17,738 bases of DNA from NCBI GenBank assembly GCA_945876155.1, contig CAMCMW010000003.1, positions 1 to 17,738 on the forward strand. Direction: 5' to 3'. The notes beneath the pieces were generated by a model. That model ran no database searches. It was not told the DNA's origin and worked only from the letters and a program-made list of their open reading frames with translations. Origin of the DNA: an uncultured Ruminococcus sp. (GTDB taxonomy: Bacteria; Bacillota; Clostridia; Oscillospirales; Ruminococcaceae). A program made the position numbers and the translations under genes. How positions within the stretch are numbered: position 1 is the stretch's first letter; each line of letters starts with the position of its first letter. Below are positions 1 to 17,738 of this stretch, one piece after another.

Positions 1-101
1 CTAAAATTAATTAATCTTATTCCTCAAATATATTCTCCCACAGATTATCATCAGATTTGTCACAAAAATCACGATAAATGTACCAAGGGGACTTATTCAG
101 A

Positions 102-108
102 AGAGGTG
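102..108 (+). promoter_or_regulatory. Ribosome binding site of the NACHT gene
   Basis: AGAGGTG lies 7 nt before the ATG at 116 and fixes that start. I could not find a convincing -35/-10 pair in bases 1-101, so the operon's promoter may lie outside the window or be weak. Confidence 0.7.
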
Positions 109-115
109 TATAGAA

Positions 116-2461
116 ATGGCAGTAACACGGCTGACGCTTAATGTCCTGCTTTCTTTGATTATTCAGTCTAAAATCACAGGAAAAGGGCTGACAGGAAACG
201 GAAAACTATTAGTAAAACTGATTAAAATAATCGAAAACGGAGAGGGTACAGAAAAATCAAAGGAATGGAATATTCTCAAAAAATTCAATGATGAGGAAAA
301 CAAGCCGGAGGCATATCATAAAATCGACAAACTTATCGGCAGATTTCTGCCTAACGGTAAAAATTTTCCCTATGAAAAATTTAATTTCAGCCGATTTGAA
401 AGCAGTATCGGCAGTCTGAAAAACTATGGCTTTTATCTTATTCAGATGAAAAAATTCTGCAATGAGGTGCTTGACAAATCAAGGTATGAACAGCTTGTAT
501 ACACTTTGCTTGAAATTGTCAGACAGGATAACAGCATTGCAAATGTTTTGTATGACAGTAATTTTATTCCAAAAGAACGTCTTTTCGGAAGCTTTGCTCA
601 CCCGAAAAAAATATGTATTGAGGCACTTTTGCTGGGACTTTTTTATCATGTATTCCGCTTTCCGGCGGAGTTTGAAAACTGTCAGCTGCTCCCCTTGCCG
701 GACAGGCTTAAATTCAGCGTTATTCGCATTGAGGACAACACAATACCCGACAGAGAATATTCATTTTTAAAGACTGTCCTTGACACTGAAATGCCGGTAA
801 AGCTTGAAACTTCTCTGAGGGATAACGCAAGACGACCGGAACACGCTATATTTCAAAGTACTCATTATCCCATTGAATTTCGTTGTGAAGGCAAAAAAAT
901 ATCCGCCCTCCCATCTGGCAAAAACATTTTTCTTTACGGTCAGGGCGGTATCGGAAAGACAACTTTTATGCGTAATATTGCAGGAAATCCGGACAATGAA
1001 ACGGTGTATTTTTACATTCCGCTGAATCAGTACAAGTACGAGATACACGAAAAATTCATGCCGGAAAGCTGTAATATTCTCGTGAATATTCTGCTGAAAT
1101 ATCACTACCAGTATGAATATCAGACCTACGAATCCGCCGCTGCCTGTGAGGGTGAGGAAACATTTTTAAAGCTGTTGACAAAGCTTTTACAGCTTTTGAG
1201 AGTAAACAATATTGACTTTACTCCGCAATATACCTTACTGCTTGACGGCTTAAACGAGATGCCGTCAGCCTTGCAGGAAAGCCTTATAAATGAGCTTGAA
1301 AGGATATGTGCAGACTGGAAAAACGTACGGTTTATCGTAAGCGGGAGAACTGTTCCGCAGTATGATTTATTCAGAAAGTTTCAGACTGTCGAAGTGTTGG
1401 GAATACCGGAAAATACTCGTAACAACGCTTTGTCTGAAATTCCGGATTATGATACAATTATACAGAACAGTCGCCTTACAGAACTTTTTAAATCTCCCCT
1501 GTTTCTGAATATTTATCTGCAAAGCCGGCAAAATAATAGTTTTGAAAGTGAGCTTAATACCCGTGGAGAAATTCTTGATTACTACGTCAAGAACTACGAA
1601 GCAAGTTTTTCCGGACTGTCTGATATTGACAGAAATGCTGTCGGATTCATTCTGCGTTATGCACTGCCATTTGCGGCAAAAACAATGCTTGACCGCCACG
1701 GTTTTGAAATTGAAAGAGCCGATTTGTCAGAGGCTGTGGACAAGGCGTATGACACATTTGTCACGGACGAACGTGTTTATCAGAATTACATTGCACCGCA
1801 GAAATACCGCAAGGCTGAGCTGTCTGAAATCCGTGAAAAGACCGATTTTACTGAATTTATCATAGACAATATCTGTTTTCTTACAACTGATAATTCTGTT
1901 CCTCAGAAACTGCGTTTTACTCACCAGTATTTCCGTGACTACTTTGCGGCAAGGCACATTTTGAATCTTATCGAGGTTTTTGAACTCTCATACAAAAACA
2001 GTTACGCAGACGAACAGGAAAAAGCGTTTAACAGGTATGATTTGGGATTTGTGTGGTTTGATGATGAGGAAGACGAGATTTACCAGCTTATCGGTGAGAT
2101 TGCCGGCGATTATCAGAACGAAGATTACGGCGGTATCACGACAGTCCTTGACAGACTCCTTGATATGTCACGCAGATTTGACACTTTCCGCCTGACAGAA
2201 AATGTTATCAGAGCCATGAGCGTTGTGCGGAATGGTGTTATCTGCAACGTTGATTTCAGCGGTACTTCCCTGCCCTTTGAGATTCCGGCTGACATAAAAT
2301 TTGTTGACTGTGATTTCAGCGGGTGCAAGGTGTTTTTGCTGGAAGCTTGTGAAAAATATCCGGAATATACCGACTGTTTTAAGGAATGTGATTTCAGAAA
2401 TGCGGTGTTTCTGATTGAGGAGTACAGGGAAATTTTAAGGGATATGGGTGCAATTATATAA
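116..2461 (+). CDS. NACHT-domain STAND NTPase
   Basis: A 781-residue signal-transduction NTPase. Visible motifs are Walker A GQGGIGKTTF (about 275-284), Walker B LLLDGLNE (374-381), a sensor-like VSGR (408-411), and the winged-helix signature FTHQYFRDYFAARH (601-614) that follows the NTPase core in NACHT proteins. Residues 1-250 are an unrecognised, helix-rich N-terminal domain. The C-terminus (about 710-765) carries a few pentapeptide-like segments (DFSG, CDFSG, CDFRN), shorter than a normal pentapeptide or LRR sensor. The ATG at 116 follows AGAGGTG at 102-108 with 7-nt spacing. NACHT proteins in bacteria are known antiphage sensors that oligomerise on activation; the N-terminal domain is normally the effector or adaptor. 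It is the first gene of a three-gene operon with an HD protein and a nucleotidyltransferase. The NACHT call is firm; a defence role is inference. Confidence 0.88.
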   Translation: MAVTRLTLNVLLSLIIQSKITGKGLTGNGKLLVKLIKIIENGEGTEKSKEWNILKKFNDEENKPEAYHKIDKLIGRFLPNGKNFPYEKFNFSRFESSIGSLKNYGFYLIQMKKFCNEVLDKSRYEQLVYTLLEIVRQDNSIANVLYDSNFIPKERLFGSFAHPKKICIEALLLGLFYHVFRFPAEFENCQLLPLPDRLKFSVIRIEDNTIPDREYSFLKTVLDTEMPVKLETSLRDNARRPEHAIFQSTHYPIEFRCEGKKISALPSGKNIFLYGQGGIGKTTFMRNIAGNPDNETVYFYIPLNQYKYEIHEKFMPESCNILVNILLKYHYQYEYQTYESAAACEGEETFLKLLTKLLQLLRVNNIDFTPQYTLLLDGLNEMPSALQESLINELERICADWKNVRFIVSGRTVPQYDLFRKFQTVEVLGIPENTRNNALSEIPDYDTIIQNSRLTELFKSPLFLNIYLQSRQNNSFESELNTRGEILDYYVKNYEASFSGLSDIDRNAVGFILRYALPFAAKTMLDRHGFEIERADLSEAVDKAYDTFVTDERVYQNYIAPQKYRKAELSEIREKTDFTEFIIDNICFLTTDNSVPQKLRFTHQYFRDYFAARHILNLIEVFELSYKNSYADEQEKAFNRYDLGFVWFDDEEDEIYQLIGEIAGDYQNEDYGGITTVLDRLLDMSRRFDTFRLTENVIRAMSVVRNGVICNVDFSGTSLPFEIPADIKFVDCDFSGCKVFLLEACEKYPEYTDCFKECDFRNAVFLIEEYREILRDMGAII

Positions 2462-2474
2462 AGAAGGTGAACGT

Positions 2475-3272
2475 ATGACAGAAAAAGACGCAATGGCACT
2501 GACACAGGAAACACTTCTGAACTCTGAAAAGCCGTCTGTATTTTTTGAAGAACTGAGGCGAAACAATCAGCTTGATGAATGGTTTCCGGAACTGGGTGCG
2601 CTTATAGGAGTGCCGCAGAACAAGGAGCATCACAAAGAGGGTGATGTCTGGACTCACACCATGATGGTTCTTGACGAGGCGGCTAAGAAAAGAGAGATTG
2701 TCAAAAATCCGCTGGGATTTATGTTATCGGCACTGTGCCACGATTTCGGCAAAGCAGTTTGCACCGAAGAAATTAACGGCGTTATTCATGCTTACAGGCA
2801 TGAATCGGAAGGTTTGCCGCTTGTTCAGACATTTCTTAAAAGACTGGGAGCAGAAACAAGTCTGATAAAATATGTTCTGAACATGGTGGAACTTCATATG
2901 CAGCCGAACATCAAGGCTGCTGCAAAGTCAAAGCTGAAGTCAACCAACAAGCTTTTTGATTCTGCCGCTGAGCCCTTTGACCTGATACAGCTTGGAATCT
3001 GCGACGGTCTCGGGAAAATTCCTCAAAGAAACGATACAGAAGATTTTCTTATGGAGAGATACAAGCTGTTCATGGAGATAATGGCAAGACCGTATGTTAC
3101 TGAATCCGACCTTACTGCCGCAGGACTCAAACCGGGCAGTCAGCTTTCGGAAGTACTCGCCTATTCCCACAAAATGCGTCTTGCCGGATGTGACAAAGAA
3201 AATTCTCTCAGGCAAAGTCTGGCGTATGCAAGAAAAGTCCTGAAGATTGATGGGGTGAACTATGAAACTTGA
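2475..3272 (+). CDS. HD-domain protein, CCA-adding-enzyme C-half homologue
   Basis: A 265-residue HD phosphohydrolase. The metal motif is seen as H61 (VWTHTMMVLDEA) and H89-D90 (LCHDFGKA), with H106/H109 in a later IHAYRHES segment. The stretch before it (FFEELRRNNQLDEWFPELGAL, then GVPQ and HHKEGD) and the tail (DLTAAGLKPGSQLSEVL) match, from memory, the region after the catalytic head of E. coli-type Cca, including the HD domain and tRNA-binding tail. The nucleotidyltransferase head itself is absent. In Cca the HD domain removes 2',3'-cyclic phosphates and has phosphatase activity, so an RNA-end-processing role is likely. ATG 2475 is preferred over the in-frame GTG at 2448 because AAGAAGGTG (2461-2469) precedes it; the gap to the NACHT stop is 13 nt. 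The reading frame overlaps the next gene by 11 nt, indicating translational coupling. The substrate is unknown. Confidence 0.85.
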   Translation: MTEKDAMALTQETLLNSEKPSVFFEELRRNNQLDEWFPELGALIGVPQNKEHHKEGDVWTHTMMVLDEAAKKREIVKNPLGFMLSALCHDFGKAVCTEEINGVIHAYRHESEGLPLVQTFLKRLGAETSLIKYVLNMVELHMQPNIKAAAKSKLKSTNKLFDSAAEPFDLIQLGICDGLGKIPQRNDTEDFLMERYKLFMEIMARPYVTESDLTAAGLKPGSQLSEVLAYSHKMRLAGCDKENSLRQSLAYARKVLKIDGVNYET

Positions 3273-4296
3273 AAATATAAAAATGCTTTTAAATGAAAAG
3301 GAATACGACTTTTTGCGGACTGATGAACATTTAGGGAAAAATATAATACTCATCGGTCTGGGCGGTTCTCACGCCTATGGAACTGACACCGACACATCTG
3401 ACGTAGATATAAGAGGCTGTGCGCTCAACAGTAAGCGTGAGATATTGTGCGGTGAAAACTTTGAGCAGGTAACGGACGCTGCTACTGATACAACGATTTA
3501 CTCATTCAAAAAGCTGATTTCCCTGCTGACCGACTGCAATCCCAATACCATAGAAATTTTAGGTCTTAAACCGGAACATTACCTGTATTTATCCGACATT
3601 GGCAGAGAGTTGCTGAACAACCGTAAAATGTTTCTGTCCAAAAAAGCTGTAAATACATTCAGCGGGTACGCTACAGCGCAGTTCAGGCGGCTTGACAACA
3701 AATCCGCAAGGCTTGCTGACCAGTCTGTACTTGAAAAACATATCCTTGCAAGTATTGAAAACGCCGCTGAAAGTTTCCGGGAAATGTATTTTCAGTACCC
3801 GGAAGACGCTATAAAGCTTTACATTGATGACGCCATAAACCACGAACTTGACAAGGAAATATTCATGGACATTACCCTTAAACACTATCCCCTGCGTGAC
3901 TACAAGGAGATGTGGAACAAAATGGCTGAAATAGTCAAAGATTACGGAAAAATGGGTAAAAGGAATCAGAACGCTGTCAGTCACAACAAGCTTGGAAAGC
4001 ACATGATGCACCTTGTAAGGCTATATATGATGTGCATTGATATTCTGGAAAAGGAAGAGATTATAACTTACCGTGAATCAGAACATCAGCTGCTTATGGA
4101 CATAAGAAACGGTAAGTTCCTCGACGAAAACAGGCAGCCTACTGAGGATTTCTTTGAACTGGTTGAAAGCTACAAGTCCAGACTGGAATATGCAAAAAAT
4201 AACACCAGTCTGCCGGAGCTGCCCGACTATGACAGGATAAGGGAGTTTGTAATGGCGGTTAATGAGAAGGCTGTTTTGGGAGATTTTGCACAATGA
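3262..4296 (+). CDS. RlaP/YcgL-type nucleotidyltransferase
   Basis: A 344-residue predicted nucleotidyltransferase of the DNA polymerase beta superfamily. The signature GLGGSHAYGTDTDTSDVDIRG (split: GGSHAYG at 34-40, then D47 and D49 as metal-binding acids) is typical of the RlaP/YcgL group (Pfam PF10127, COG3541), with a likely third acid near D76 in DTTIYSF. RlaP stands for RNA-ligase-associated predicted nucleotidyltransferase; the group was described from RNA-repair gene neighbourhoods. The C-terminal two thirds are helical without a recognised domain. ATG 3262 follows GGGGTG at 3252-3257 and lies inside the end of the HD gene, so the two proteins are probably made in fixed ratio. No RNA ligase gene lies within the window. 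It could add nucleotides to RNA ends, or it could modify a protein; the sequence does not decide. Confidence 0.86.
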   Translation: MKLENIKMLLNEKEYDFLRTDEHLGKNIILIGLGGSHAYGTDTDTSDVDIRGCALNSKREILCGENFEQVTDAATDTTIYSFKKLISLLTDCNPNTIEILGLKPEHYLYLSDIGRELLNNRKMFLSKKAVNTFSGYATAQFRRLDNKSARLADQSVLEKHILASIENAAESFREMYFQYPEDAIKLYIDDAINHELDKEIFMDITLKHYPLRDYKEMWNKMAEIVKDYGKMGKRNQNAVSHNKLGKHMMHLVRLYMMCIDILEKEEIITYRESEHQLLMDIRNGKFLDENRQPTEDFFELVESYKSRLEYAKNNTSLPELPDYDRIREFVMAVNEKAVLGDFAQ

Positions 4297-4325
4297 ACGG
4301 ATAAAATATATTAGCATAAATACCA

Positions 4326-4354
4326 TTGACAGCAAGCTGAAATCTGTTTATAAT
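4326..4354 (+). promoter_or_regulatory. Perfect-consensus sigma-A promoter
   Basis: TTGACA at 4326-4331 and TATAAT at 4349-4354 are separated by exactly 17 bases. Transcription would start near 4361 and run through the MerR-type promoter into the regulator gene. No terminator hairpin is visible between the nucleotidyltransferase stop and this point. Confidence 0.7.
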
Positions 4355-4372
4355 AAATTTCTAAAAAAGTAC

Positions 4373-4403
4373 TTGACTCTCCCCTTAGGGTATGCTCTAA
4401 AAT
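4373..4403 (+). promoter_or_regulatory. MerR-type promoter/operator with 19-bp spacer
   Basis: TTGACT at 4373-4378 and TAAAAT at 4398-4403 are separated by 19 bases, the over-long spacing that MerR-family regulators act on. The spacer holds the short inverted element CCC-TTA-GGG (4382-4390). The -35 and left spacer (TTGACTCTCCCCT) resemble, from memory, the BmrR target promoter of Bacillus. It directly precedes the MerR-family gene, so autoregulation is likely. Confidence 0.72.
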
Positions 4404-4431
4404 AGAAAATGTGGAAAGGAGATGACATCAT

Positions 4432-5223
4432 ATGCTGAAAATCGGTGAGTTTTCGAAGCTGTCACACCTTACGGTGAAAGCACTGCGGTTTTATGAAAAA
4501 AAGGGACTTCTTATCCCCAAAACGGTCGATGAATGGACAGGGTACCGCTTTTATGAAACCCGACAGCTTGAGGATGCAGCAAAGATAAAGGCATACAGAC
4601 AGCTTGATTTATCAATTGATGAAATTAAAGCTGTTATGGACGGTGGGGACATTAAAGCTGTCTTTGCGAAAAAAGCCCGGGATTTACAGTCGCAAAGGGA
4701 AGAAATTGATGTTCGTCTTTCCATAATAAAAACTATTCTGGAGGATGAAAGTATGAAGTATCAGGTAACAGTAAAGGAAATTCCATCAGCAATCGTTTAT
4801 TATGCGGAAACAACTCTGGAAAAATATTCGGACGCAATGGAGTTTATCCCTAAGTGCGGAGAAGAGTGCAGAAAGCTTAACCCGAATCTTAAATGTACAA
4901 ATCCGCCTTACGAATTCTGCGAATACCTTGACGGTGAATACAAGGAAACCAATATCCGTATCCGTCACAGCGAAGCCGTAGAAAAAACCGGCAAGGAAAG
5001 TGAGCTGATAAAATTCCGTGAAATTCCTGCGGCAAAGGTTTTAAGCATTCTACATAAGGGTGCTTACGAACAAATCGGTGAGGCTTACGCTTTTATTATG
5101 AAATACGCCGATGACAACGGATATAAGGTCGCAGGTCTTGCAAGAGAATGTTACATCGACGGAATCTGGAACAAGCAGTCTGTTGAGGACTGGCTGACTG
5201 AAATTCAGCTGCCTGTCGAATAA
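4432..5223 (+). CDS. MerR-family regulator with GyrI-like effector domain
   Basis: A 263-residue transcription regulator. Residues 1-70 form the MerR winged helix-turn-helix (IGEFSKLSHLTVKALRFYEK, then GYRFYE), followed by a dimerisation helix at about 75-110 and a GyrI-like ligand-binding domain (about 112-260). The latter contains the typical second-half IPAAKVLSILHKGAYEQIGEAY and a central acidic residue in RECYID. The architecture is that of BmrR-type multidrug sensors, which bind hydrophobic cations and activate promoters with 19-bp spacers. AAAGGAG (4415-4421) precedes ATG 4432. The promoter in front has the expected 19-bp spacer, suggesting self-control. No efflux pump lies beside it; the next gene is a DUF998 membrane protein with its own promoter after a terminator, so the target set is unknown. 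Confidence 0.93.
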   Translation: MLKIGEFSKLSHLTVKALRFYEKKGLLIPKTVDEWTGYRFYETRQLEDAAKIKAYRQLDLSIDEIKAVMDGGDIKAVFAKKARDLQSQREEIDVRLSIIKTILEDESMKYQVTVKEIPSAIVYYAETTLEKYSDAMEFIPKCGEECRKLNPNLKCTNPPYEFCEYLDGEYKETNIRIRHSEAVEKTGKESELIKFREIPAAKVLSILHKGAYEQIGEAYAFIMKYADDNGYKVAGLARECYIDGIWNKQSVEDWLTEIQLPVE

Positions 5224-5242
5224 AACAGCATACTACTACAAC

Positions 5243-5275
5243 AAGCTCCCCTGATTATTTTCAGAGGAGCTTTTT
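5243..5275 (+). terminator. Rho-independent terminator after the MerR gene
   Basis: Stem AGCTCCCCTGA (5244-5254) pairs with TCAGAGGAGCT (5261-5271) with one mismatch, followed by a T run at 5271-5275. It lies 20 bases after the regulator stop codon. Confidence 0.8.
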
Positions 5276-5280
5276 CAATG

Positions 5281-5309
5281 TTGACTGTAAATCCATTTAA
5301 TGCTATAAT
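5281..5309 (+). promoter_or_regulatory. Promoter of the DUF998 gene
   Basis: TTGACT (5281-5286), 17-base spacer, TATAAT (5304-5309) preceded by TGC, giving an extended -10. The start would fall near 5316, about 27 bases before the ATG at 5343. Confidence 0.78.
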
Positions 5310-5342
5310 TATTTTGCAATAAAATATGAAAGAAGATTTACG

Positions 5343-5963
5343 ATGAATAAAAGCAAAATTATTTTTTTATCCGGTCCTCTTGCATTGATATGCTACCTGA
5401 TGCATGATATTCTGGGAAGTATAAATTATAAAGGATATGACCCGTTAACTCAGGCAGTAAGTGACCTTACTGCTGAAAATGCACCTTCTTTATGGATAGC
5501 TCGTCCGTTATCAGCTTTATACGGACTATTCAGCATAATCTGTATTGCTGCTGCATGTGTATTTTTCCGAAAAAAGATAAATGCGGTTCAATACAGCGGA
5601 TTGTTAGTGTATGCTTTAATGAACATTATTTCTGCTGTCGGATACAGCTTGTTTCCTCTGACTGAATCAGGTTCGCCCGACGGATTTCAGAATAAAATGC
5701 ACATTATAGTAACAATAGCAGTTGTTGCATCATCTGTCATTTCCCTGTTGCTTATTATTATCGGAAATTTTTTCAGGAAATCTGATAAAGCTCTGGGTAT
5801 TGCAGCTGTGATTGCATTTTTGTTTATGGCAGGCGGAGCAATAGGTACAAACATTGCCCCGGAATCAATATTTGGCATAGTCGAAAGATTGTCTACATAT
5901 GCTGCGGTTGGGTTTACTGCTTTTATCGGTATAAAGTGTTTATTGAAACCTCGTGAAACTTAA
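5343..5963 (+). CDS. DUF998-family integral membrane protein
   Basis: A 206-residue membrane protein with about six predicted transmembrane segments (roughly 5-26, 53-75, 82-104, 115-140, 147-168, 180-199). The N-terminal pattern of a first helix, a loop containing YDPLTQAVSDLT, and a second helix beginning near ARPLSALYG is that of DUF998, a family of small bacterial membrane proteins with no established function. It has its own extended -10 promoter and a weak ribosome site (GAAAGAAG) before ATG 5343. It sits behind the MerR-family gene, a frequent arrangement for regulator/membrane-protein pairs, but the terminator between them argues against one transcript. Its promoter has a normal 17-bp spacer, so it is not an obvious MerR target. 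Confidence 0.8.
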   Translation: MNKSKIIFLSGPLALICYLMHDILGSINYKGYDPLTQAVSDLTAENAPSLWIARPLSALYGLFSIICIAAACVFFRKKINAVQYSGLLVYALMNIISAVGYSLFPLTESGSPDGFQNKMHIIVTIAVVASSVISLLLIIIGNFFRKSDKALGIAAVIAFLFMAGGAIGTNIAPESIFGIVERLSTYAAVGFTAFIGIKCLLKPRET

Positions 5964-5975
5964 TATTATAAAAAG

Positions 5976-6006
5976 AATGAGCCCTCGCTGAGGGGTCTTG
6001 TTCATT
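5976..6006 (-). terminator. Terminator between converging genes
   Basis: CCCTC (5982-5986) pairs with GAGGG (5990-5994), and an outer AATGA/TCATT pair (5976-5980 with 6002-6006) extends the stem. On the minus strand it is followed by CTTTTTAT, so it best serves the McrBC-Fic transcript, directly after the Fic remnant's stop codon. It could also slow plus-strand transcripts from the DUF998 gene. Confidence 0.65.
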
Positions 6007-6503
6007 TATTTTACCAGACGGTACTTCTGGTTCTTGCTGTTGGGTTTATCAGGTATTGTTCTTTCAACAAGTCCGCTTTCAAGTGCCGGTGAAAGATAAT
6101 TCTTACGGAATGTAGGGCGGTGAGACAGTCCAAGCTTCTTCATTATGTCTGCGGCAGACATTTCTTCATCACCGAGTACTGCAATCAGACGGTTTACAGA
6201 TTTATCTTGGTCGGTATCATGGTCGCTTACTTGTCCGGTGGACCGATCAAGATATGACATTTCCTTTAAGGTATCATAAATAATCTCCAGCATAAGTTCA
6301 ACGAAAACTGCACTGTCTGTGTTCTTGTCGGCTTTTCCCAACGCATCATAGTACTCCTTTTGCCTGGACTGTATAAGTTCTTCAACAGGGGGCCAGAAAA
6401 ACAAATCTTTCCATTGTCCTAACAGCAGACTATGCCACATTCTGCCCATGCGTCCGTTTCCGTCTGCAAAAGGACGTCTGAAAAAAGCTCTATGAACAGA
6501 TTC
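6006..6503 (-). pseudogene. Fic-family protein, 5'-truncated and degraded
   Basis: The C-terminal part of a Fic (AMP-transferase) protein. The intact part encodes the phosphate-binding core PFADGNGRMGRMWHSLLL, the following helices (FVELMLEIIYDTLKE), and a C-terminal winged helix (SAADIMKKLGLSHRPTFRKNYL). The catalytic motif HPFx(D/E)GNGR is damaged: the codons before PFADGNGR read CGT (Arg) where the catalytic His belongs, and the preceding HRAFF segment is one residue short of normal spacing. Upstream the frame hits TGA (6504-6506), and the usual 150 or more N-terminal residues are missing. The first ATG in this frame (6449) lies inside the motif with no good ribosome site. It is downstream of the McrC gene on the same strand. 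It is very unlikely to adenylylate anything; a free winged-helix fragment (147 residues from 6449) could still be made. Confidence 0.75.
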
Positions 6504-6536
6504 TCAGCAGCACTTCCGCTGGGAGTTACAAGATGT

Positions 6537-6614
6537 TCACTCATTGCTTTCCTCCACTTCATTTTCAATTATCTCAGGTATCCTGTCACGGACAAGTTTG
6601 TTGTGAATCTTCAA
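6537..6614 (-). pseudogene. 5' fragment of a MazG-like pyrophosphohydrolase gene
   Basis: A 25-codon reading frame from TTG 6612-6614 reads LKIHNKLVRDRIPEIIENE and then departs, ending at TGA 6537-6539. The segment NKLVRDRIPEII matches the conserved N-terminus of small MazG-like (phosphoribosyl-ATP pyrophosphohydrolase-like) house-cleaning enzymes, which are normally about 100 residues. The start is well formed: GGGGTGAG at 6621-6628 with 6-nt spacing. Only the first 18 or so residues survive; the sequence then runs into the Fic remnant, consistent with a deletion that removed the rest of this gene and the front of the Fic gene. It follows the McrC stop by about 60 bases, so it was probably once part of that operon. 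Family assignment is from a short motif. Confidence 0.5.
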
Positions 6615-6673
6615 AATTTTCTCACCCCATTGTTATTGAATTTATCAGTACTCCTCATAATATCTCACTCCAT

Positions 6674-7729
6674 TTACGAAAAATAGCTATGCGCAATTTC
6701 ATCAAGCTGCTTTGCTATTACTGAAAATTCCTGATTAAGGTCAAGTGTTTTGGCTCCTATGCTATTACCGCCTATTACAAATGGCTTTCCATCGGGAAAA
6801 ACTTCCTCCTCAGTTCTGGCATAGAGCAGCAGACCTGAAACATTTCCGGTATTCTCAGTATCCATATTTCTGACATAGGCAAATATCTGATACAAATGAG
6901 CAGACCTGAGCGTTGACTTATCGAAATTCTGTATCATTGCTTTGCCATAATACTTCGCATCTATAATAAGCTTTTTACCGTCCTTGTGCAAAGTGATATC
7001 TGTCCTCATGTCAGGCAGAAACTGTATCATTGCATTATCTGGTTCTTCTGTCAAATTCCATTTTATGTGCTGGGCTGACGGATTAAGCTCTGCATGATGC
7101 TGTCTGTAATATTCAAGGATAAACCGTTCATACAACCGTTCCATGTGTTCATCTGAAAAGGCAAGAAGTTTATATTCGCCATTTTCGGTAGTCTGGAGCA
7201 TACCATTCAGTATGAAATAACATATATTCAGCAAAAGTTCATAATTACGATTGTTACGCTGATAAATAAGTTTGTTCCATGCAATATAGTTAGGCTGTAT
7301 CAGTTTCACATTACCAAAAAAGACAAGTAGTTTCTTTAGTGACTGTCTGCGTTCTGCGGCAACATCGTCTGCCCGGACAAGTCGATCTATGGTAGTTTTG
7401 AGTATCTGATTGTATATGTTGTCCTCCGAAAATTCATCAAACTCACAAGAGAACTGCCTTTTTCTCTGCATTTGAAGAGCCATTGTACCGTTTATATTCA
7501 GCTTGCCCCGCATTACAGACAAATCTTCCTTCACCGGAACATATTCACGGTACAAGCCCTGTTTCAGCTGTCTTGAAACGCCCTTCACGAGTATAGCCGC
7601 AAAGAGATCATGTATCTTTTCAAACTGCTCGGCAGCAACATTTTCATAATCTCCCTGTTTCAGAATCTGAAACGCATAGGACAGCATATAATAGATATTC
7701 TTTATAAAAATGCCCTTATCAGCCGTCAT
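6674..7729 (-). CDS. mcrC: McrC-like nuclease subunit of a type IV restriction system
   Basis: A 351-residue McrC-family protein that supplies the nuclease for the adjacent McrB motor. The N-terminal GIFIKNIYYMLSYAF is the usual opening of McrC proteins. The C-terminal PD-(D/E)xK nuclease core is visible as D247 (DMRTDITL) and D260-x-K262 (IIDAKYYGK), followed by HLYQIFAYV, with Q and Y in the expected helix (numbering from the upstream GTG 7738; subtract 3 for the chosen start). ATG 7729 is preferred to GTG 7738 because AGGTGA (7735-7740) is 5 nt before it. The gene overlaps the end of the McrB gene by 11 nt, so the subunits are translationally coupled. All catalytic residues appear present. 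Function: cleaves DNA carrying modified cytosines recognised by McrB. Confidence 0.9.
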   Translation of the reverse strand: MTADKGIFIKNIYYMLSYAFQILKQGDYENVAAEQFEKIHDLFAAILVKGVSRQLKQGLYREYVPVKEDLSVMRGKLNINGTMALQMQRKRQFSCEFDEFSEDNIYNQILKTTIDRLVRADDVAAERRQSLKKLLVFFGNVKLIQPNYIAWNKLIYQRNNRNYELLLNICYFILNGMLQTTENGEYKLLAFSDEHMERLYERFILEYYRQHHAELNPSAQHIKWNLTEEPDNAMIQFLPDMRTDITLHKDGKKLIIDAKYYGKAMIQNFDKSTLRSAHLYQIFAYVRNMDTENTGNVSGLLLYARTEEEVFPDGKPFVIGGNSIGAKTLDLNQEFSVIAKQLDEIAHSYFS

Positions 7730-9794
7730 ATTCCTCACCTATTAACTGATACAATGCTTTTGTCCAGTCGGCAGTCTTTTTATCATCATCGAACCAGTAC
7801 TCTTCTATCATCGGGATAATCTCATACTCAATAACATTACACACCCATGCGTCATCAATGACTGAGATATCTTCCGGTGCAAAATAACTGTGACCTATCT
7901 CAAAGCCCTTTCCAAGAGAACTGTCATTGCGTATCGCACTGTTCAGTTCCCTTATTTTTGATACCGCCGTATGGTACAGCTTGCAGTCAATTTGTTTCAT
8001 ATAATCGCCGAAGCCGTTATTATCTGCATTTTCAAAAGCAGGTTTCATAGTGTAGAAACTGAAACGTCTGCGGAGAGCGTAATCTATCATTGCAAGACTG
8101 CGGTCGGCTGTGTTCATCATACCGATAATATGTAGATTTTCGGGGATATAGAAAGGCTTTCCGCCGTAAACAAGATTTACCCTGTGTTCTTCACCACGCT
8201 TGTCCGTTTCGATAAGCATGAGAAGTTCACCAAAGATTTTACTGAGATTTCCACGGTTTATTTCGTCTATGATAAAGAAATACGGTTTGTCGGGATTTTC
8301 CTTACAGCGTTCACAGAAATTATAGAACACACCGCTGCGCAGTTCAAAAGAGCCGTCTTCCGCAGGACGATATCCCATAATGAAATCCTCATAGGAGTAA
8401 TTCTGGTGGAACTGTACCATGCAGATTCTGTTCTCGTTTTTCTCTCCTATTATCGAATATGCAAGGCGTTTTGCAGAAAACGTCTTACCTACACCCGGAG
8501 CACCCTGAAGTATGATATTTTTCTTTTTCAGAAGAAGTGAACGAAGTTTGTCGTATTCGGGTTCGGTGATGAATACATCTTTGAGAAAATTGTCTTTGGT
8601 GTAATGTTTCAGAAATTCAAAATTTGATGATACTATTTCTTCATTCTTACTATTTGCTATATCTTTTTGGAATTTCATGTAATCTTGTGGCACATCATTA
8701 AATACAAAATCACTCAGTGCCTTTGTACGCCAATCATTCTCTTTAGGCAAACTAATCGTGTTCCTGAATGTATAGAAATACCATTCTTTGGGTTGGAATG
8801 ACATATCCCAATCAACTTCAAGAGTTCTTCCGTCCTTTTGATTAGCAACGACTGTACCAACTATCTTGATATACATAACAGAAATTGTTTCCCCGTGGTT
8901 GTCAAAAGGGAGTCCTTTTTTCTTTGTATAAGATGTTTTGATTGCTATTTTATCGCCAACCCTGACGCTATTCACAGTATCAAGAAATTTGTCTGTATGT
9001 CCATTCTGCCAAATTCCTTGCGCAACAAAATCCTCGTCTTGATGTGTATTATCAGTATCGCTATATGCGCCTACAAACCAACATCTCGTAATTAAATTGC
9101 TTTTTGATGTGTTATTCTTATAAAACCGTGTCAAATAAAACCCAAAGTCAACGGTAATTGTTTTCAATTCAGGGTCGGTATAGCAATTATCAGTGATAGC
9201 TTTGTCAAGCATCTGACGTATATCATTATCAGCTTTCAGAATTTCACATATCTCATCATACATCTTAAAGCCTTCAATCACATTCTGAACATAACCGTTT
9301 CTGCCTGGAATATATGTATCATCAAGCTCATCAGCAACAGCTTTAAAAAGTTCATATTTATAAATATAATATTTATCAGGATACATTAACCATAAATATG
9401 TACTGACAGAATTGGTATTCTGATAATGTTTTTTCCATGTCCCGTTATCATATTTAGCTCTGATTTCTTCTGATGTATTGATAAATGTTTCTATACGTAA
9501 GGAAAGGTCCAAATTTTCATCAAACAGATTGACAAACATATTTCGGGTCGCTTCATCATCAGCTTTTGCAAATTCAAGTATCATACCTCTTGGATATGCA
9601 TAACCGGATGCAAGAAGATTTGAAGTTTTATCTGTTGCTTTCTTAAACATTTCGCCAAAATTTTCCGCATTAATATCCCAGTTATCCTGAAAATGCTTAA
9701 CTGCCTGCCATTTGTATTTTTCATCTTCCCAGTGAGCTGGAAAATAATTCTTATATTCGTTAATTATTTGAATTGCTTTATCAGAATCAATCAT
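7719..9794 (-). CDS. mcrB: McrB-like AAA+ ATPase with EVE/PUA-like domain
   Basis: A 691-residue motor and recognition subunit of an McrBC restriction system. Residues 1-230 are an uncharacterised helical N-terminal region. Residues about 236-345 (TRCWFVGAY... VRVGDKIAIK... WYFYTFRNTI) look like an EVE/PUA-fold domain, a class known to bind modified bases. The AAA+ core follows: Walker A GAPGVGKT (431-438), Walker B FFIIDEINRG (506-514), MNTADRS (560-566) and the arginine-finger run RRRF (575-578), all typical of McrB. ATG 9794 is chosen because GGAGG lies just ahead; the longer in-frame ATG at 9833 would overlap the promoter -10. It is first in the operon with McrC. The McrB core is certain; the N-terminal specificity assignment is inference. 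Confidence 0.9.
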   Translation of the reverse strand: MIDSDKAIQIINEYKNYFPAHWEDEKYKWQAVKHFQDNWDINAENFGEMFKKATDKTSNLLASGYAYPRGMILEFAKADDEATRNMFVNLFDENLDLSLRIETFINTSEEIRAKYDNGTWKKHYQNTNSVSTYLWLMYPDKYYIYKYELFKAVADELDDTYIPGRNGYVQNVIEGFKMYDEICEILKADNDIRQMLDKAITDNCYTDPELKTITVDFGFYLTRFYKNNTSKSNLITRCWFVGAYSDTDNTHQDEDFVAQGIWQNGHTDKFLDTVNSVRVGDKIAIKTSYTKKKGLPFDNHGETISVMYIKIVGTVVANQKDGRTLEVDWDMSFQPKEWYFYTFRNTISLPKENDWRTKALSDFVFNDVPQDYMKFQKDIANSKNEEIVSSNFEFLKHYTKDNFLKDVFITEPEYDKLRSLLLKKKNIILQGAPGVGKTFSAKRLAYSIIGEKNENRICMVQFHQNYSYEDFIMGYRPAEDGSFELRSGVFYNFCERCKENPDKPYFFIIDEINRGNLSKIFGELLMLIETDKRGEEHRVNLVYGGKPFYIPENLHIIGMMNTADRSLAMIDYALRRRFSFYTMKPAFENADNNGFGDYMKQIDCKLYHTAVSKIRELNSAIRNDSSLGKGFEIGHSYFAPEDISVIDDAWVCNVIEYEIIPMIEEYWFDDDKKTADWTKALYQLIGEEYDG

Positions 9795-9821
9795 AATATC
9801 CTCCGAAACAGTATTTTTTAT

Positions 9822-9850
9822 ATTATAGCACATATTTACCGAAAAAACAA
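9822..9850 (-). promoter_or_regulatory. Promoter of the mcrBC operon
   Basis: On the minus strand TTGTTT (9845-9850), a 17-base spacer, and TATAAT (9822-9827) preceded by TGC (extended -10). The start would be near 9815, leaving a leader of about 20 bases with GGAGG before ATG 9794. Confidence 0.78.
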
Positions 9851-9884
9851 TTTTTTACCAATGCTTTTATTACTTATATGAAAC

Positions 9885-9905
9885 AGACCGGCATTTCACC
9901 GGTCT
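9885..9905 (-). terminator. Hairpin terminator after the exonuclease-helicase gene
   Basis: AGACCGG (9885-9891) and CCGGTCT (9899-9905) form a perfect 7-bp stem with a 7-base loop. The minus-strand T tract after it is short (GTTTCAT), so strength is uncertain. Its place between the giant helicase stop (9967) and the mcrB promoter fits a terminator. Confidence 0.6.
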
Positions 9906-9966
9906 ATTATGTTAATAATAATTACTAAATTTCATTTAAAATTCTTACACATTTTTCGAATCTGCC

Positions 9967-12900
9967 TCATTCATACAGTCTGAAATAAATATCCGGCAGA
10001 ATTACAGCAGTTTCCGTTTCATCGTCCTTACCTTTCCATGCACAGATAAATCGTATTTTTGCATCATACAGCGTATATCCGTCAGCGATTATTTTTTTAA
10101 TTTTTTCATAGCAGGCTGATGAGAACTGAAGAACCGGAATCATTTTTTCACCGCTGCAAATATACAGTCTGTTTGCTTTTGCATAAAGGTGCATACCGCT
10201 TTGCATACGCAATATCAGTTGCTTTTTGTCTTTGAAGAAACTGAGGTATACGTCCCTGTGCGACAACTGCATTATCAGTTCAGATGGTTTTGCGTAGGAG
10301 TGGAGGTCTGTTTCATCTGCAAACATATCAAAAGCGTCACCGGTGTAGTGAATATGGAGAAGTGACTTTGCTCTTGTAATGCCTACATACAGTTTTCGCT
10401 TTGTTTCATCGGTATCAAGAACCGGACTGTTCAGCAGCATGAAAACATTGTCAAATTCTCTGCCTTTTGATTTATGCATTGTGGAAATTGTAATAACACC
10501 CTGCTCACTTTTATAAAAATCCTCAATTTTTGATTCGTGCAGAAACATATCAAGGTCTGTACGATATTTTCTTGTATTGGTTTCTGCAAAGGCTGTAAGG
10601 ATATCCAGTATCAGGGGCAGACATTCACTTTTGCCATACTGCTGTTTCAGTTTCTCAATTGCGTTATCCCACTGCTTATCACTTATAACAGGAGATATTT
10701 CAACGCTGTCTGACCGCAGTTTTTTAAGGAAAAAGCGTACCTCTGCGATGTCGAAAATATCAAATCCGTCCATGGACTGTATAAGCTTTGCCGGAATATT
10801 TCTCTGTTTCAGAACACCCAGCATCATAAGAGCTTCCCTGTTGGTATTTGTCAGAATACAGGTTGTCCCCTTGACATTTGACGCAGCAATATCATCTGCA
10901 ACAGCAGTTTCTATATACTTTCCGCTGTGTTTTATCAGCTTTGTTTCTCCGTCAGATTCAGAAACAGCAATAATATCTTCATATTTCATTCTATCAGAGA
11001 TTTCTTTTACAAACCTATTGGCAAAAGAAACGATACTTTTACAGCTCCTGTAATTGTCGATAAGTGAATACTGCTGTGCATCATGTTCAGTTATAAGTGT
11101 TTTAAGATATTTTGAATCTGAACCCCTGAACTGATATATATTCTGGTCGTCATCACCCACAGCAATAACTCTCATATCGTCATTGCGTTCCATAAGTGCT
11201 TCCACAAGCTGAAATTCATAGCAATCCATATCCTGTGCCTCATCAATAACGAGTACGGTTTTGGTTATTCTTCCAAGGTCAGCGTCACCGCTGAGTATCA
11301 GTTCTCCTGCGTCCTTCACAACGTTTTCAGAATCCTGAATATTACCTATTTTTCCAAGCAAATCAAAACAATATGAATGGAATGTCTTTATCTCTACAAA
11401 ATTTGCAGCGTTGCCGATAAGCTCTTTCAGACGCTGTTTGAACTCAATAGCCGCTGCTCTTGAAAACGTCAGCATAAGCAGCTGTTCGTGCTTTACATCT
11501 TCCAGCAGAAGCAACGCCGCAAGCTTATGTACCAGCACCTTTGTTTTGCCGCTTCCCGGACCGGCTGATACAACGATATGCTGTGATGTGTTGTCACGAA
11601 TTATCTCAAGCTGTCTTTCAGAGAGGGTATCAAACAGCTGAGAGTATTTTGCCGGCGTAATGTTTCTTTCTATCTGTGCGGCTCGTTCTCCCGCAAAATA
11701 CTGCGCCAGAAATTTCTTATAATCCATCTGGAAATAATCATTGACGAACTGAAGAGCCTCATCATAATCACGAACCATCATATTCGCATACTCGCCCACA
11801 ATATGTATCTGCTGAATCTTCTGTTGATAAAATTCCTTAAGCTGTTTGTAGTCTTCCAGTTTATATTTGATTCTGTTGTCAAGCACCAGTCTTTTCAGTT
11901 TCATTCCGCTGTACAGAACAAGAAATCCGCCTTCGAGTTTAAGTGCATTTATCTTTGAGAGAAACAGCAATGCTTCTTCAATATCATTTGCGGAAACGCC
12001 ATAGTTTTCCTTTGCTTTATATGCCTTCATAAGTTCCAGTATTGAAAAACCTACGAGCATTTCTTCTTTTTCACCTGTATCGGAACTGCTGTGTTCAAAT
12101 AGGTAATTAATGATAAATTCAGCAATCTTATAGCTTTTTGTTCTTTTTTGAATCAGTGTTTCAAGCTTCAGCTTTGGAACAATCATGACCTTATTTGTCA
12201 CAGAATCCTGTTCTTTCTGAATATAGCTGCGTATAGTCCAGTAATAGAATAATGTCTTGATTGAATTGACTGAGCTTGATTTTATCCCGTTTGCAAGTGC
12301 AGCCTCGTTCAGTTCCTTATAATTCATACAGAGTTTATCTGCATCAATGTATTCAAGCAGAAATTTTTCAAGCGACTGAAATTTATGAAGTATCAGAAGC
12401 GACTTATTTTTCCTGTCGTTTTTCAGTATATATGCAGTAAGATCCTGTGTATCCGCAAGCAGTCCGTCTTCTCTCATCATCTGAATGGAATGAATAATAT
12501 CTGCTTTTTCAATCCCAAGACGGTCAGCAAGATAATCCACTCTTGATTCTGCGTCATCATTGCCGGCTTTGGAAATACTCTTGCTGGAAATCAGTGAGCT
12601 TATAATTCTCTTTGCATTAATACGCTCCTGTTCAACGGTAATTCTGAGCGATTCATCAATACGCTGCGACGCCTCCCTCATATCTTTTACAAGAATGCTT
12701 TTTGCATATATTCTCGGAACGTTTTTCCCTCTTTTAAGGTAACCAGCATTTTCAAGTGCCTGGATTGCCGTTTTCACTCTTGTTTCTATATCCGAAACGC
12801 TGTCATCCCAGCCAGCCTGCCTTGCAACTTCAAGAGGAGAGCAGCACACTTCCGGATGTGATTTTGTCATATTCTTTACAGCTCTCCACACCTGCTGTAT

Positions 12901-14724
12901 CTCACTGATACTGAGCTTTGTCTGATTGAGGAGAATAAAATGCTTGTCCAGGTCGCCGTCACTGTATAATACATAACAATCTGCCTGAAGTGACGGGTCA
13001 CGCCCTGCACGGCCTGCTTCCTGCACATAGTTTTCAAGTGAATCTGAAATATCATAATGAACCACAAGTCCCACATTGGATTTATCAACACCCATTCCGA
13101 ATGCCGAAGTAGCAACGATTATCTGCACTTCATCATTGATAAACGCTTCCTGATTCTCCTGTTTCTCGCTGCTTTCCATTTTACCATTGAATGCCCTTGC
13201 TTTGAATCCGTCATCTGTAAGCTTTTGTGCAAGCATTCTTGTACGTTTGGTTCTTGAAACGTAGACAATAGTCGGACAGTTCTTTTGTTCTATCAGAGCA
13301 CGCAGAGTATCATACTTTTCAGCATCTGTTTCTTTATGCAGTACTTCATAACGCAGATTTGTTCTTACCGCATTCGTGGCAAAAATTTCAAGTTCAATAT
13401 CAAGCTTATTTTTAAAATACTCCCTGATATCACTGATTACTTTCTGTTTTGCTGTTGCAGTGAAACAGGACACAGGTATCCTGTAATTACCGCCTTTTTT
13501 CTCCTGCAGTTCTCGTATGAAATCACCGATATACAGGTAATCCACACGGAAATCCTGTCCCCATGCGGAGAAACAGTGTGCCTCATCAATTACAAACCGG
13601 TCAATAGTGCGGGCAAGAAACAGCCTTTCTATTGTGACCGAACGGAGTGATTCAGGTGAAATATATAAAATGGAGGCTATGCCTGACTCAACTCTTTTTA
13701 TTGCTTCCGCTCTTTCGACAGGACTAAGCAGTCCGTTAATAGTTACGGCATCAGCAATACCCTTCTTTTCAAGGTTATCCACCTGGTCTTTCATCAATGA
13801 CTGCAAAGGAGAAATAACTACTGCCAGCGCTCTTTCAGTTTCACCAGCCATAAGTGCAGGTATCTGGAATGTAAGGGATTTGCCGCCGCCTGTGGGAAAT
13901 ACTGCAAGCAGTGATTTATGTTCAGCCGCTGCATTTACGGCATTTTCCTGCAGAGGTTCTCCGTTATATGTACGAAAATCAGTATATCCGAAATACCTGC
14001 TGAGATATTTTTTCGGATCAAGTTCTGATATGCAATAACTGCATTTGCCGCACGAAGTGTTCCTTAACGCTTTAAGTATCACATCAACTTTCGGAAAATT
14101 TATAAGCACCCATCTCGGGATAAGAGAATGCTTCTCTGTTGCCGATAACAGAGCAAGACAATAGGCAAGTTCAACAGGAAAATCTGAGATGAAGTCAGCC
14201 AAAGGAGAATTTTCGCATATTTTATCTGAAAAGTACGCTGATATCACTGCTTCAGGGTCGGCATTGGCTGAATAATCAAGATATGAAAAAAATCCCGAAA
14301 AATATGGACTGTCTTTCAGCAGCATATAATATATCTGCTTTAATTCATCATCAAGATTCTGAAATGCACTGACTTCATCATAGAAAAGGCTTATAGCCTT
14401 AACAGAATCATTCAAAGGATTATTAAGCACATCTGTACACAGCTTGTCATCTTTCAGCAGCTTATGATAAGGCTTGTTGGGAAACATCAGCGGTGAAAGA
14501 TAAAGCGTATCAATGTATATTGCGTCAGCAGGGGCTTCAATATACTTTGCGTCGTGATTAATAATGTTATGACCACATAGATACTTTGTACCGGAAATGA
14601 ATTCATGAAATTTACTGAAAGAACCTGTATGCAGCTTTTCTCCGTTTTCGTTTACTGCCCCGAAGTCATATGCCTTATTATCTGTTTCACTGACTTCTGT
14701 GTCTATAAATATGATTGGTTTCAT
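9967..14724 (-). CDS. DEDD exonuclease-RecQ helicase-UvrD-like helicase fusion
   Basis: A 1585-residue, three-module DNA-processing protein. (1) Residues 1-130 are a DnaQ-like 3'-5' exonuclease: FIDTE (D8, E10), CGHNIINHD (D58), and a late acid in NDSVKA (D106). (2) A Cys cluster CGKCSYC (225-231) precedes a RecQ helicase: PTGGGKS (277-283), DEAHCFSAWGQDFR (380-393), AFGMGVDK (541-548), QEAGRAGRD (568-576). (3) After a long linker (about 600-1030) comes a UvrD/PcrA-like helicase: GPGSGKT (1055-1061), DEAQD (1161-1165), GDDDQNIYQFRG (1190-1201), TMHKSKGREFD (1415-1425), YVGITRAK (1446-1453). About 115 C-terminal residues are unassigned. ATG 14724 has GGGGGTG just upstream. Large RecQ proteins of this layout occur in Firmicutes and Bacteroidetes (recalled); a defence or recombination role is inferred. 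It is a stand-alone transcription unit. Confidence 0.92.
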   Translation of the reverse strand: MKPIIFIDTEVSETDNKAYDFGAVNENGEKLHTGSFSKFHEFISGTKYLCGHNIINHDAKYIEAPADAIYIDTLYLSPLMFPNKPYHKLLKDDKLCTDVLNNPLNDSVKAISLFYDEVSAFQNLDDELKQIYYMLLKDSPYFSGFFSYLDYSANADPEAVISAYFSDKICENSPLADFISDFPVELAYCLALLSATEKHSLIPRWVLINFPKVDVILKALRNTSCGKCSYCISELDPKKYLSRYFGYTDFRTYNGEPLQENAVNAAAEHKSLLAVFPTGGGKSLTFQIPALMAGETERALAVVISPLQSLMKDQVDNLEKKGIADAVTINGLLSPVERAEAIKRVESGIASILYISPESLRSVTIERLFLARTIDRFVIDEAHCFSAWGQDFRVDYLYIGDFIRELQEKKGGNYRIPVSCFTATAKQKVISDIREYFKNKLDIELEIFATNAVRTNLRYEVLHKETDAEKYDTLRALIEQKNCPTIVYVSRTKRTRMLAQKLTDDGFKARAFNGKMESSEKQENQEAFINDEVQIIVATSAFGMGVDKSNVGLVVHYDISDSLENYVQEAGRAGRDPSLQADCYVLYSDGDLDKHFILLNQTKLSISEIQQVWRAVKNMTKSHPEVCCSPLEVARQAGWDDSVSDIETRVKTAIQALENAGYLKRGKNVPRIYAKSILVKDMREASQRIDESLRITVEQERINAKRIISSLISSKSISKAGNDDAESRVDYLADRLGIEKADIIHSIQMMREDGLLADTQDLTAYILKNDRKNKSLLILHKFQSLEKFLLEYIDADKLCMNYKELNEAALANGIKSSSVNSIKTLFYYWTIRSYIQKEQDSVTNKVMIVPKLKLETLIQKRTKSYKIAEFIINYLFEHSSSDTGEKEEMLVGFSILELMKAYKAKENYGVSANDIEEALLFLSKINALKLEGGFLVLYSGMKLKRLVLDNRIKYKLEDYKQLKEFYQQKIQQIHIVGEYANMMVRDYDEALQFVNDYFQMDYKKFLAQYFAGERAAQIERNITPAKYSQLFDTLSERQLEIIRDNTSQHIVVSAGPGSGKTKVLVHKLAALLLLEDVKHEQLLMLTFSRAAAIEFKQRLKELIGNAANFVEIKTFHSYCFDLLGKIGNIQDSENVVKDAGELILSGDADLGRITKTVLVIDEAQDMDCYEFQLVEALMERNDDMRVIAVGDDDQNIYQFRGSDSKYLKTLITEHDAQQYSLIDNYRSCKSIVSFANRFVKEISDRMKYEDIIAVSESDGETKLIKHSGKYIETAVADDIAASNVKGTTCILTNTNREALMMLGVLKQRNIPAKLIQSMDGFDIFDIAEVRFFLKKLRSDSVEISPVISDKQWDNAIEKLKQQYGKSECLPLILDILTAFAETNTRKYRTDLDMFLHESKIEDFYKSEQGVITISTMHKSKGREFDNVFMLLNSPVLDTDETKRKLYVGITRAKSLLHIHYTGDAFDMFADETDLHSYAKPSELIMQLSHRDVYLSFFKDKKQLILRMQSGMHLYAKANRLYICSGEKMIPVLQFSSACYEKIKKIIADGYTLYDAKIRFICAWKGKDDETETAVILPDIYFRLYE

Positions 14725-14763
14725 GCGTTCACCCCCTAAGACCTTATTTTATATATTTTCCTT

Positions 14764-14792
14764 ATTATACCATATTTTGTCGAATTTTTCAA
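14764..14792 (-). promoter_or_regulatory. Promoter of the exonuclease-helicase gene
   Basis: On the minus strand TTGAAA (14787-14792), 17-base spacer, TATAAT (14764-14769). The 5' leader would be about 30-35 bases, ending in GGGGGTG before ATG 14724. Confidence 0.75.
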
Positions 14793-14839
14793 CTGTATTA
14801 ATAATACTTGCGAATATACAACATTATCCACATGGAAAT

Positions 14840-14869
14840 AAAAAAAGACAGTCCAGATTTGGACTATCT
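14840..14869 (-). terminator. Terminator overlapping the histidine kinase stop codon
   Basis: On the minus strand AGATAGTCCA (14860-14869) pairs with TGGACTGTCT (14846-14855) over 10 bp with one G-U pair and a 4-base loop, followed by a run of seven T (14840-14846). The kinase stop codon TAG (14864-14866) lies inside the 5' arm. Confidence 0.88.
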
Positions 14870-15787
14870 CTTCAATTCTATTACAAATCCTTTGGTATAA
14901 CCCTCAATATTATCATCAATATAAAGTCGACCGTCATGAAGCTCGGAAATGCGTTTTGATATTGCAAGGCCAAGACCGCTGCCGTCCTTAGTCTGCCTTG
15001 ATGTGTCAGAGCACTGGAACGGCATGAAAATACTTCTCCTCTGCTCCTGCGGAATATCATTTCCCGAATCAGCAATAATAATGCGGACAGCCGATTCATG
15101 AACCTCAAGTCTGACAAGCATTTTTATTCCACTGTCATTATGCCTTAAAACATTTGAAATAAGATTGTTTATAAGCCGTGTAAGTTCTGCCGTATCCACA
15201 TCTGCATTTACAGGATTTTCGGGCAGTACTATTTCAGGCTCAATATTGTTTTGCTCAATTTCGAGGTAATGTTCTGCAATTATACTTCTCAGCAGACTGC
15301 ACAGGTCAGTTTCCTGTAAATTCAGCGAATAGCCGTCTGATTCCATTTTTGCATACCGGAACATTTTCAGTATCATGTCATTCATCTGAATTGTTTTTTC
15401 GCATATTGTGTGATACACAGCCGGTACTTCATCATCGCTGACGTTACCCTCCTCCAGTACTCTTGCAAAACCAAGTACTGAGGACATCGGATTTTTAAGG
15501 TCATGAGAAATATTTGCAAACATAAGATTCTGCTCCCTGACCTGCCGCTGTGCTTCTTCGGCAACGTATCTGCTTATCTTACGATAATAAATCCATGAAA
15601 CGCCAAAGAACAGTATCATTGCCAGAATTACTCCGGATACTTCCAGTAAAATGGCAGATATTCCAAGATTTTCACTGATAGCAGGAATGTATGAGCTGAA
15701 AAAGCAAAACAGATACCATTCAGCAATCAGCAGAACCGTTGTGATAATAATGTAATAATAGATAATCTTCTTTTTTAATGTGTCCAT
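14864..15787 (-). CDS. Sensor histidine kinase with very short outer loop
   Basis: A 307-residue membrane histidine kinase. Two transmembrane segments (about 9-31 and 44-66) enclose an outer loop of only about a dozen residues, so there is no extracellular sensor domain; this resembles intramembrane-sensing kinases of Firmicutes that detect cell-envelope stress. A coiled linker leads to the H-box ISHDLKNP with phosphoacceptor H95. The ATPase has N-box LINNLISNVLRHN (205-217), G1 ADSGND (239-244), and G2 GSGLGLAI (269-276). All kinase motifs are intact. ATG 15787 lies 4 bases past the response regulator stop (TAG 15791-15793), so translation is coupled. The stimulus is unknown; VanS/PhoR-like by motif style. 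Confidence 0.92.
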   Translation of the reverse strand: MDTLKKKIIYYYIIITTVLLIAEWYLFCFFSSYIPAISENLGISAILLEVSGVILAMILFFGVSWIYYRKISRYVAEEAQRQVREQNLMFANISHDLKNPMSSVLGFARVLEEGNVSDDEVPAVYHTICEKTIQMNDMILKMFRYAKMESDGYSLNLQETDLCSLLRSIIAEHYLEIEQNNIEPEIVLPENPVNADVDTAELTRLINNLISNVLRHNDSGIKMLVRLEVHESAVRIIIADSGNDIPQEQRRSIFMPFQCSDTSRQTKDGSGLGLAISKRISELHDGRLYIDDNIEGYTKGFVIELKR

Positions 15788-15790
15788 ATG

Positions 15791-16793: not shown

Positions 16794-16860
16794 TTCAATT
16801 TCCTCCGTTTACTGTAATAATCAGCATTCCTTTGCTGTATCTACATAATAACACCTGAAT

Positions 16861-16899
16861 ATTACAGCAATACACGAGTTTTATTACATTAACATTACA
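16861..16899 (-). promoter_or_regulatory. Phased TGTAAT direct repeats, likely response-regulator site
   Basis: On the minus strand TGTAAT occurs at 16894-16899, 16883-16888 and 16861-16866, i.e. start-to-start offsets of 11 and 22 bases. The first two lie in identical AATGTAAT octamers. Such helical-turn-spaced direct repeats are the usual binding sites of OmpR-family regulators. TTGACA at 16912-16917 lies upstream, and a possible -10 TATTAT (16845-16850) lies downstream without a good -35 at 17 bases, as in activator-dependent promoters. Confidence 0.55.
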
Positions 16900-16934
16900 T
16901 TTGCGGCTTAGTGTCAATAAATTTGATGCCATAC

Positions 16935-16973: not shown

Positions 16974-17021
16974 CTTATATTATACTCAATGCTATAGGTG
17001 TTGAGCCTAACAAATTGGAAT

Positions 17022-17720: not shown

Positions 17721-17738
17721 AATGCACCTTCACAAATT

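Follow-up and report, generated by a model that had tools for sequence, protein, structure and literature searches.

RlaP nucleotidyltransferases, Cca-type HD domains and bacterial NACHT NTPases have each been described in other settings. A passage of a jumbo-phage paper predicts that RlaP restores lost nucleotides ahead of ligation (PMC7824862), and the relevant portion of a report on mycobacterial Cca gives an HD-dependent phosphatase activity on pNPP, while a 2',3'-cyclic phosphodiesterase activity of the HD domain of E. coli Cca is cited there by title (PMC10673834). The bacterial NLR-related NACHT proteins (bNACHT), with bNACHT25 as an example, are the subject of a further article (PMC12169576). 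A literature search found no paper on a NACHT-HD-RlaP trio, and the pair of a headless Cca and RlaP may have an earlier description.

All three kinds of gene meet in the window, by which we mean the whole 17,738-nt stretch analysed here, from an uncultured Ruminococcus sp. (GCA_945876155.1, contig CAMCMW010000003.1, positions 1-17,738 of the forward strand; a MAG, 77% complete, denoted G000). We consider it likely that HD and RlaP act together as an accessory pair in the repair of damaged RNA 3' ends, and that the separately inherited and probably mobile NACHT gene in front of them landed there by chance. The features of the window are as follows.

116-2461, plus strand: NLR-like NACHT NTPase, 781 aa; conserved helical N-terminal region, NACHT at about 270-440, C-terminus pentapeptide-like by eye
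2462-2474, plus strand: NACHT-HD junction, 13 nt, with a Shine-Dalgarno-like AGAAGG immediately 3' of the NACHT stop
2475-3272, plus strand: HD phosphohydrolase, 265 aa; Cca-type C-terminal half without the nucleotidyltransferase head
3262-4296, plus strand: RlaP nucleotidyltransferase (PF10127), 344 aa, with the GS...D47xD49 site intact
6006-6449, minus strand: 147-aa ORF with only a Fic-like C-terminal domain (domain match), possibly a remnant
6674-9833, minus strand: McrB-McrC type IV restriction pair (domain matches)
9967-14724, minus strand: 1585-aa fusion of RecQ-type and UvrD-type helicases (domain matches), exonuclease-like by eye at the N-terminus

The ORF coordinates agree exactly with the three same-strand genes, the 13-nt gap and the 11-nt overlap of the preliminary description; the HD start is taken as the ATG at 2475, and an alternative in-frame GTG at 2448 would make HD overlap NACHT as well. 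In a promoter scan the closest plus-strand promoter-like match 5' of HD was found at 1758-1786, that is within NACHT, and the final 670 nt of NACHT hold no such match on that strand; it should also be mentioned that 22 promoter-like sites were observed in 6.5 kb as against 14.1 in shuffles, and single sites therefore carry little weight. Given the 13-nt spacing and the lack of a plus-strand promoter-like match late in NACHT, the sequence makes it likely that NACHT and HD-RlaP are co-transcribed in the window, and a link between them selected in this lineage is thus conceivable.

The first protein matches NPHP3_N of Pfam above the cut-off (E 9.6e-6) and the NACHT family itself just below it (E 2.4e-5, 24.7 bits against 26.7), and the best Foldseek matches of its predicted fold are NOD2 (E 6.6e-11, TM 0.33) and NLRC4. 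As judged by the NACHT domain and this modelled NLR-like fold it is an NLR-like STAND NTPase, and the initial assignment of the gene to the NACHT NTPases is hence upheld in spite of the 2 bits by which NACHT falls short of its own cut-off. An effector domain was sought at the N-terminus and none could be assigned, the top matches of the whole model being NLRs, and no informative sequence relatives of either NACHT or RlaP were found in the PDB.

A 30-sequence profile of the NACHT protein retrieved 31 loci from GTDB genomes, of which the 25 loci L014-L038 are close relatives with 36-87% identity; outside these 25 lie six weaker GTDB matches (L039-L044, 22-31%) and two NACHT loci of the genome G028. 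Neither HD nor RlaP occurs in the flanks of any of the 25 close relatives, 20 of which include at least 3 kb of downstream sequence, nor in the flanks of about 1 kb around the two loci of G028. Furthermore, the closest relative, L014, shares 89% DNA identity with window positions 1-2461, a similarity whose end coincides with the stop codon of NACHT, and the genes beyond its NACHT lie on the opposite strand. These NACHT genes often lie near an integrase: a divergent tyrosine integrase is found upstream of NACHT in 13 of the 25 GTDB loci (L015-L017, L020, L021, L027-L029, L032-L035 and L038), at 268-591 nt from the NACHT match, and in both relatives on viral contigs (L059 and L060), the overall range being 250-591 nt, and the count rises to 15 of 25 when up to 1.6 kb upstream is considered, two of the 25 having no upstream sequence at all and the integrase domains having been checked on four proteins, one a fragment. 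No upstream integrase is seen in L014, and since the first base of the contig lies only 115 nt upstream of the window's NACHT, an integrase belonging to it, if there is one, would be out of sight. Integrase and NACHT possibly constitute a small mobile unit. Direct repeats at the ends of such units were considered as element boundaries and show none: among the 15 loci compared of 18 (in the other three the motif used revealed no integrase ORF) just one, L027, exceeded its shuffled control, with a repeat of 14 nt against 11, and this repeat is located 47 nt inside the NACHT stop. From these comparisons the NACHT gene is probably a solo gene, mobile and inherited separately from HD-RlaP.

The second protein scores 20.7 bits against the HD family of Pfam (E 5.4e-4, cut-off 22), while its residues 14-162 align to positions 184-324 of the model of E. 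coli-type Cca with 76 bits (E 2.3e-21), far below the 451 bits that this model demands of a whole protein, and the PolyA_pol head domain (PF01743) is absent among the Pfam matches of its 265 residues. Residues H61, H89, D90, H109 and H141 are kept in the window protein and in all 120 homologues analysed (the best 120 of 2698), and within this best 120 of 2698 the HD-site residues are conserved in all 57 full-length, Cca-like forms and likewise in all 63 short ones. The preliminary description was therefore right in matching the protein to the C-terminal half of Cca, but calling that half non-catalytic does not fit an HD phosphohydrolase site with its conserved residues in place. In a tree of the same best 120 of 2698, the distribution of short and full-length forms needs 10 changes, at least 8 of which are forced by well-supported branches, and among the clades made up of short forms only are one with 20 rows (support 100/99) and another with 29 (86/91). 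Loss of the head has thus recurred, the number of losses being unsure because the bootstrap had yet to converge fully and contig ends may have truncated some of the short rows. The HD protein was also considered as the CCA enzyme of the cell, and this is ruled out by its missing head and by a 448-aa Cca-type ORF with head on contig C60, the sole PF01743 match in the window genome; with the window HD as query, no second match was found in its own genome. Since the head is supplied by this separate ORF, the HD-RlaP pair appears to be accessory and not the housekeeping CCA system.

The third protein matches RlaP (PF10127) with 57.5 bits (E 2.2e-15, Pfam cut-off 23), the profile match being partial (12-143 of 249), and G35, S36, D47 and D49 are invariant across 24 sequences. 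The GS...DxD motif conserved here is what we take to be the site motif of Pol-beta nucleotidyltransferases, and an RlaP-type nucleotidyltransferase with intact metal acids, as first proposed, is borne out by the match above cut-off and by the two invariant aspartates. The expression "split Cca-like pair", which had been used for HD and RlaP together, is on the other hand inexact: the HD protein is indeed a headless Cca, but RlaP is a different nucleotidyltransferase, which in relatives already stands beside a complete Cca.

In overlapping samples of genomes, each including the window's own, RlaP was found in 1 of 11 from the genus (the window's own; E 0.001), 8 of 396 from the family and 2 of 394 from the order (both E<=1e-20), and, by profile, 16 of 391 from the class (E<=1e-10). 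Twenty-six RlaP stretches were read, 12 found by the window protein (the window itself included) and 14 from the class sample, leaving out fragments in G763 and G1062 and a weak match in G103 (E 9.4e-4); those of G258, G121, G767 and G772 are short (3.6-6.2 kb). A Cca-type HD gene adjoins RlaP in 10 of the 26, and because 9 of these belong to the 12 found by the window protein and only one to the 14 distant RlaPs of the class sample, the pairing seems to be a habit of the window's RlaP subfamily. Two of the ten HD genes are headless (the window and G096), six encode a full-length Cca and two are cut by the contig end; in G772 a gap of 450 nt separates the full-length Cca from RlaP, and in G767 the RlaP beside HD is shortened. 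On viral contigs Cca adjoins RlaP, or is one gene off, in 7 of 14 loci, a count that includes both L053 and L054, which have the same gene layout and are probably near copies. The association is furthermore visible in contig sizes, since among the best 120 homologues of each protein 13 HD rows (8 full-length, 5 short) have the same longest-contig size as an RlaP row, as against 0-2 coincidences when sizes are shifted by 1-7 bases either way; NACHT, again among the best 120 of each, coincides once with RlaP, which is inside the control range, and never with HD.

Genes of RNA repair also occur near RlaP. RtcB is found in 3 of the 26 stretches (G310, G1147 and G1151) and somewhere in 7 of the 9 RlaP genomes searched, an RtcB match being absent from the window, from the window genome at its 77% completeness and from G529. 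The fullest cluster, L069 of G310, contains a DUF2828/DUF7788 protein, RtcB, WYL, WCX, full Cca and RlaP, the phage contig locus L045 has RlaP and Cca followed by a kinase-phosphatase-RNA ligase protein, and in L102 RlaP is accompanied by what looks by eye like another nucleotidyltransferase, by RtcB and by a TROVE/Ro60-like protein. Inspected by eye, 6 of the 14 distant loci (L092, L093, L094, L100, L101 and L102) carry such a second nucleotidyltransferase-like gene adjoining RlaP, and that of L092, the sole one of the six checked, is a strong member of PF10127. In L088 the genes 5' of RlaP encode a sacsin/HATPase-like protein of 1233 aa and, as judged by eye, a methyltransferase-like one; this setting resembles that of a defence locus and has no Cca.

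The notion of RNA-end repair put forward in the preliminary description is thus supported for HD and RlaP, whose pairing recurs both in genomes and in phage contigs, the Cca being full-length or headless, and is seen beside RtcB in L069 and a ligase in L045. In such a pathway RNases would leave a 2',3'-cyclic or 2'/3' phosphate that the HD enzyme would take off; RlaP would next restore the lost nucleotide or nucleotides at the RNA end, and the break could finally be sealed by a ligase whose gene lies elsewhere, either RtcB or an ATP-dependent RNA ligase. One may alternatively suppose that the product of RlaP is a nucleotide signal or an AMPylated protein and that the HD enzyme reverses this reaction, with no RNA being extended. 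This notion stems from the Foldseek neighbours of the RlaP model, namely kanamycin nucleotidyltransferase (E 0.0034), Hailong HalB (0.018) and MntA (0.027), and from a Mnt antitoxin in the profile search (E 0.075), but no Foldseek match reaches E 0.001, the middle part of the model is poorly predicted, and RlaP recurs in the company of Cca and, at certain loci, of RtcB or RNA ligase, so that we regard a signalling or AMPylating role as unlikely. The pair could also be what is left of a larger, decaying Cca-RlaP-RtcB cluster, with a loss so recent that it is still intact. This would agree with the missing head, with the absence of an RtcB match from the genome and with the shortened RlaP of G767; yet both ORFs are open with their conserved sites present, and short HD forms make up several clades, including those of 20 and 29 rows, and keep the HD-site residues throughout, which renders decay highly improbable.

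The preliminary description further proposed a three-gene defence operon that detects infection and repairs or alters RNA ends; in such a system HD-RlaP would be the effector or antidote of a NACHT sensor. The tight spacing and overlap, the lack of a promoter-like match late in NACHT, and the McrBC pair and fused helicase close by are in agreement with it, as is the fact that RlaP is commoner in genomes with the window's NACHT family, 3 of 23 (E<=1e-20; a fourth genome, holding a fragment, is not counted) compared with 8 of the 396 family genomes sampled (Fisher P 0.018). This co-occurrence is however weak and could be explained by genomes rich in mobile genes, and in G772, G765 and G767 the RlaP contigs differ in size from the NACHT contigs and are without NACHT as far as read. 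As a conserved system the trio is rejected: the flanks of the close NACHT relatives are empty of HD and RlaP, only one of the 26 RlaP stretches, the window itself, contains a NACHT, the other 25 being without one of the window's family, the similarity to L014 stops at the NACHT stop, and NACHT relatives often adjoin an integrase instead. In the collections searched HD-RlaP pairs occur without NACHT and the adjacency is confined to one genome, the very outcome of a side-by-side count that the preliminary description had named as speaking for coincidence. A genuine three-gene defence system is consequently unlikely, and as NACHT and HD-RlaP occur separately in the related genomes examined, the apparent immune system is, going by gene neighbourhoods, probably a chance meeting, in which NACHT would have landed in front of the pair. 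Closely related strains that carry the trio may be present outside these collections, and one can imagine, as a rather improbable variant, that a mobile bacterial NLR captured a minimal RNA-end healing machine of headless Cca HD and RlaP, so that a single transcript would serve both to activate immunity and to repair self-inflicted RNA damage; if true, this would be an immune receptor carrying its own built-in antidote. The locus is in any case a warning that tight spacing alone is no proof of a defence operon: a NACHT gene that is otherwise solitary can sit 13 nt before a pair that it otherwise does not accompany.

If the NACHT gene is compared with bNACHT as presented in PMC12169576, the NACHT NTPase is common to both and the predicted fold of the window protein resembles NOD2 and NLRC4, but its PADLOC matches are only weak, the best being Avs2 at E 5e-4, and an antiphage role is putative. 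The RlaP protein resembles PF10127, the RNA repair pathway DNA polymerase beta family, in passing the curated cut-off and conserving GS...DxD, but its match is partial at 57.5 bits, whereas the second nucleotidyltransferase beside the distant relative L092 reaches 291 bits. The HD protein corresponds to residues 184-324 of E. coli-type Cca and keeps the HD-site residues, and differs in having no nucleotidyltransferase head, which another ORF of the genome carries. From the phage ligase cassette L045 the window differs in gene order, RlaP preceding Cca there, in reverse of HD-RlaP. To their counterparts in the RtcB/WYL RNA-repair cluster L069, RlaP is 78% and HD 67% identical, with the same order and a slight overlap; the Cca head and the RtcB, WYL and DUF2828 genes of that cluster are missing from the window, which has NACHT upstream instead. 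By its genes and their arrangement the HD-RlaP pair is a variant of the known Cca-RlaP RNA-repair pairing, one that separates two activities which a single enzyme usually combines, and a headless Cca beside RlaP predicts that the repair pathway needs the HD phosphatase of Cca and not CCA addition.
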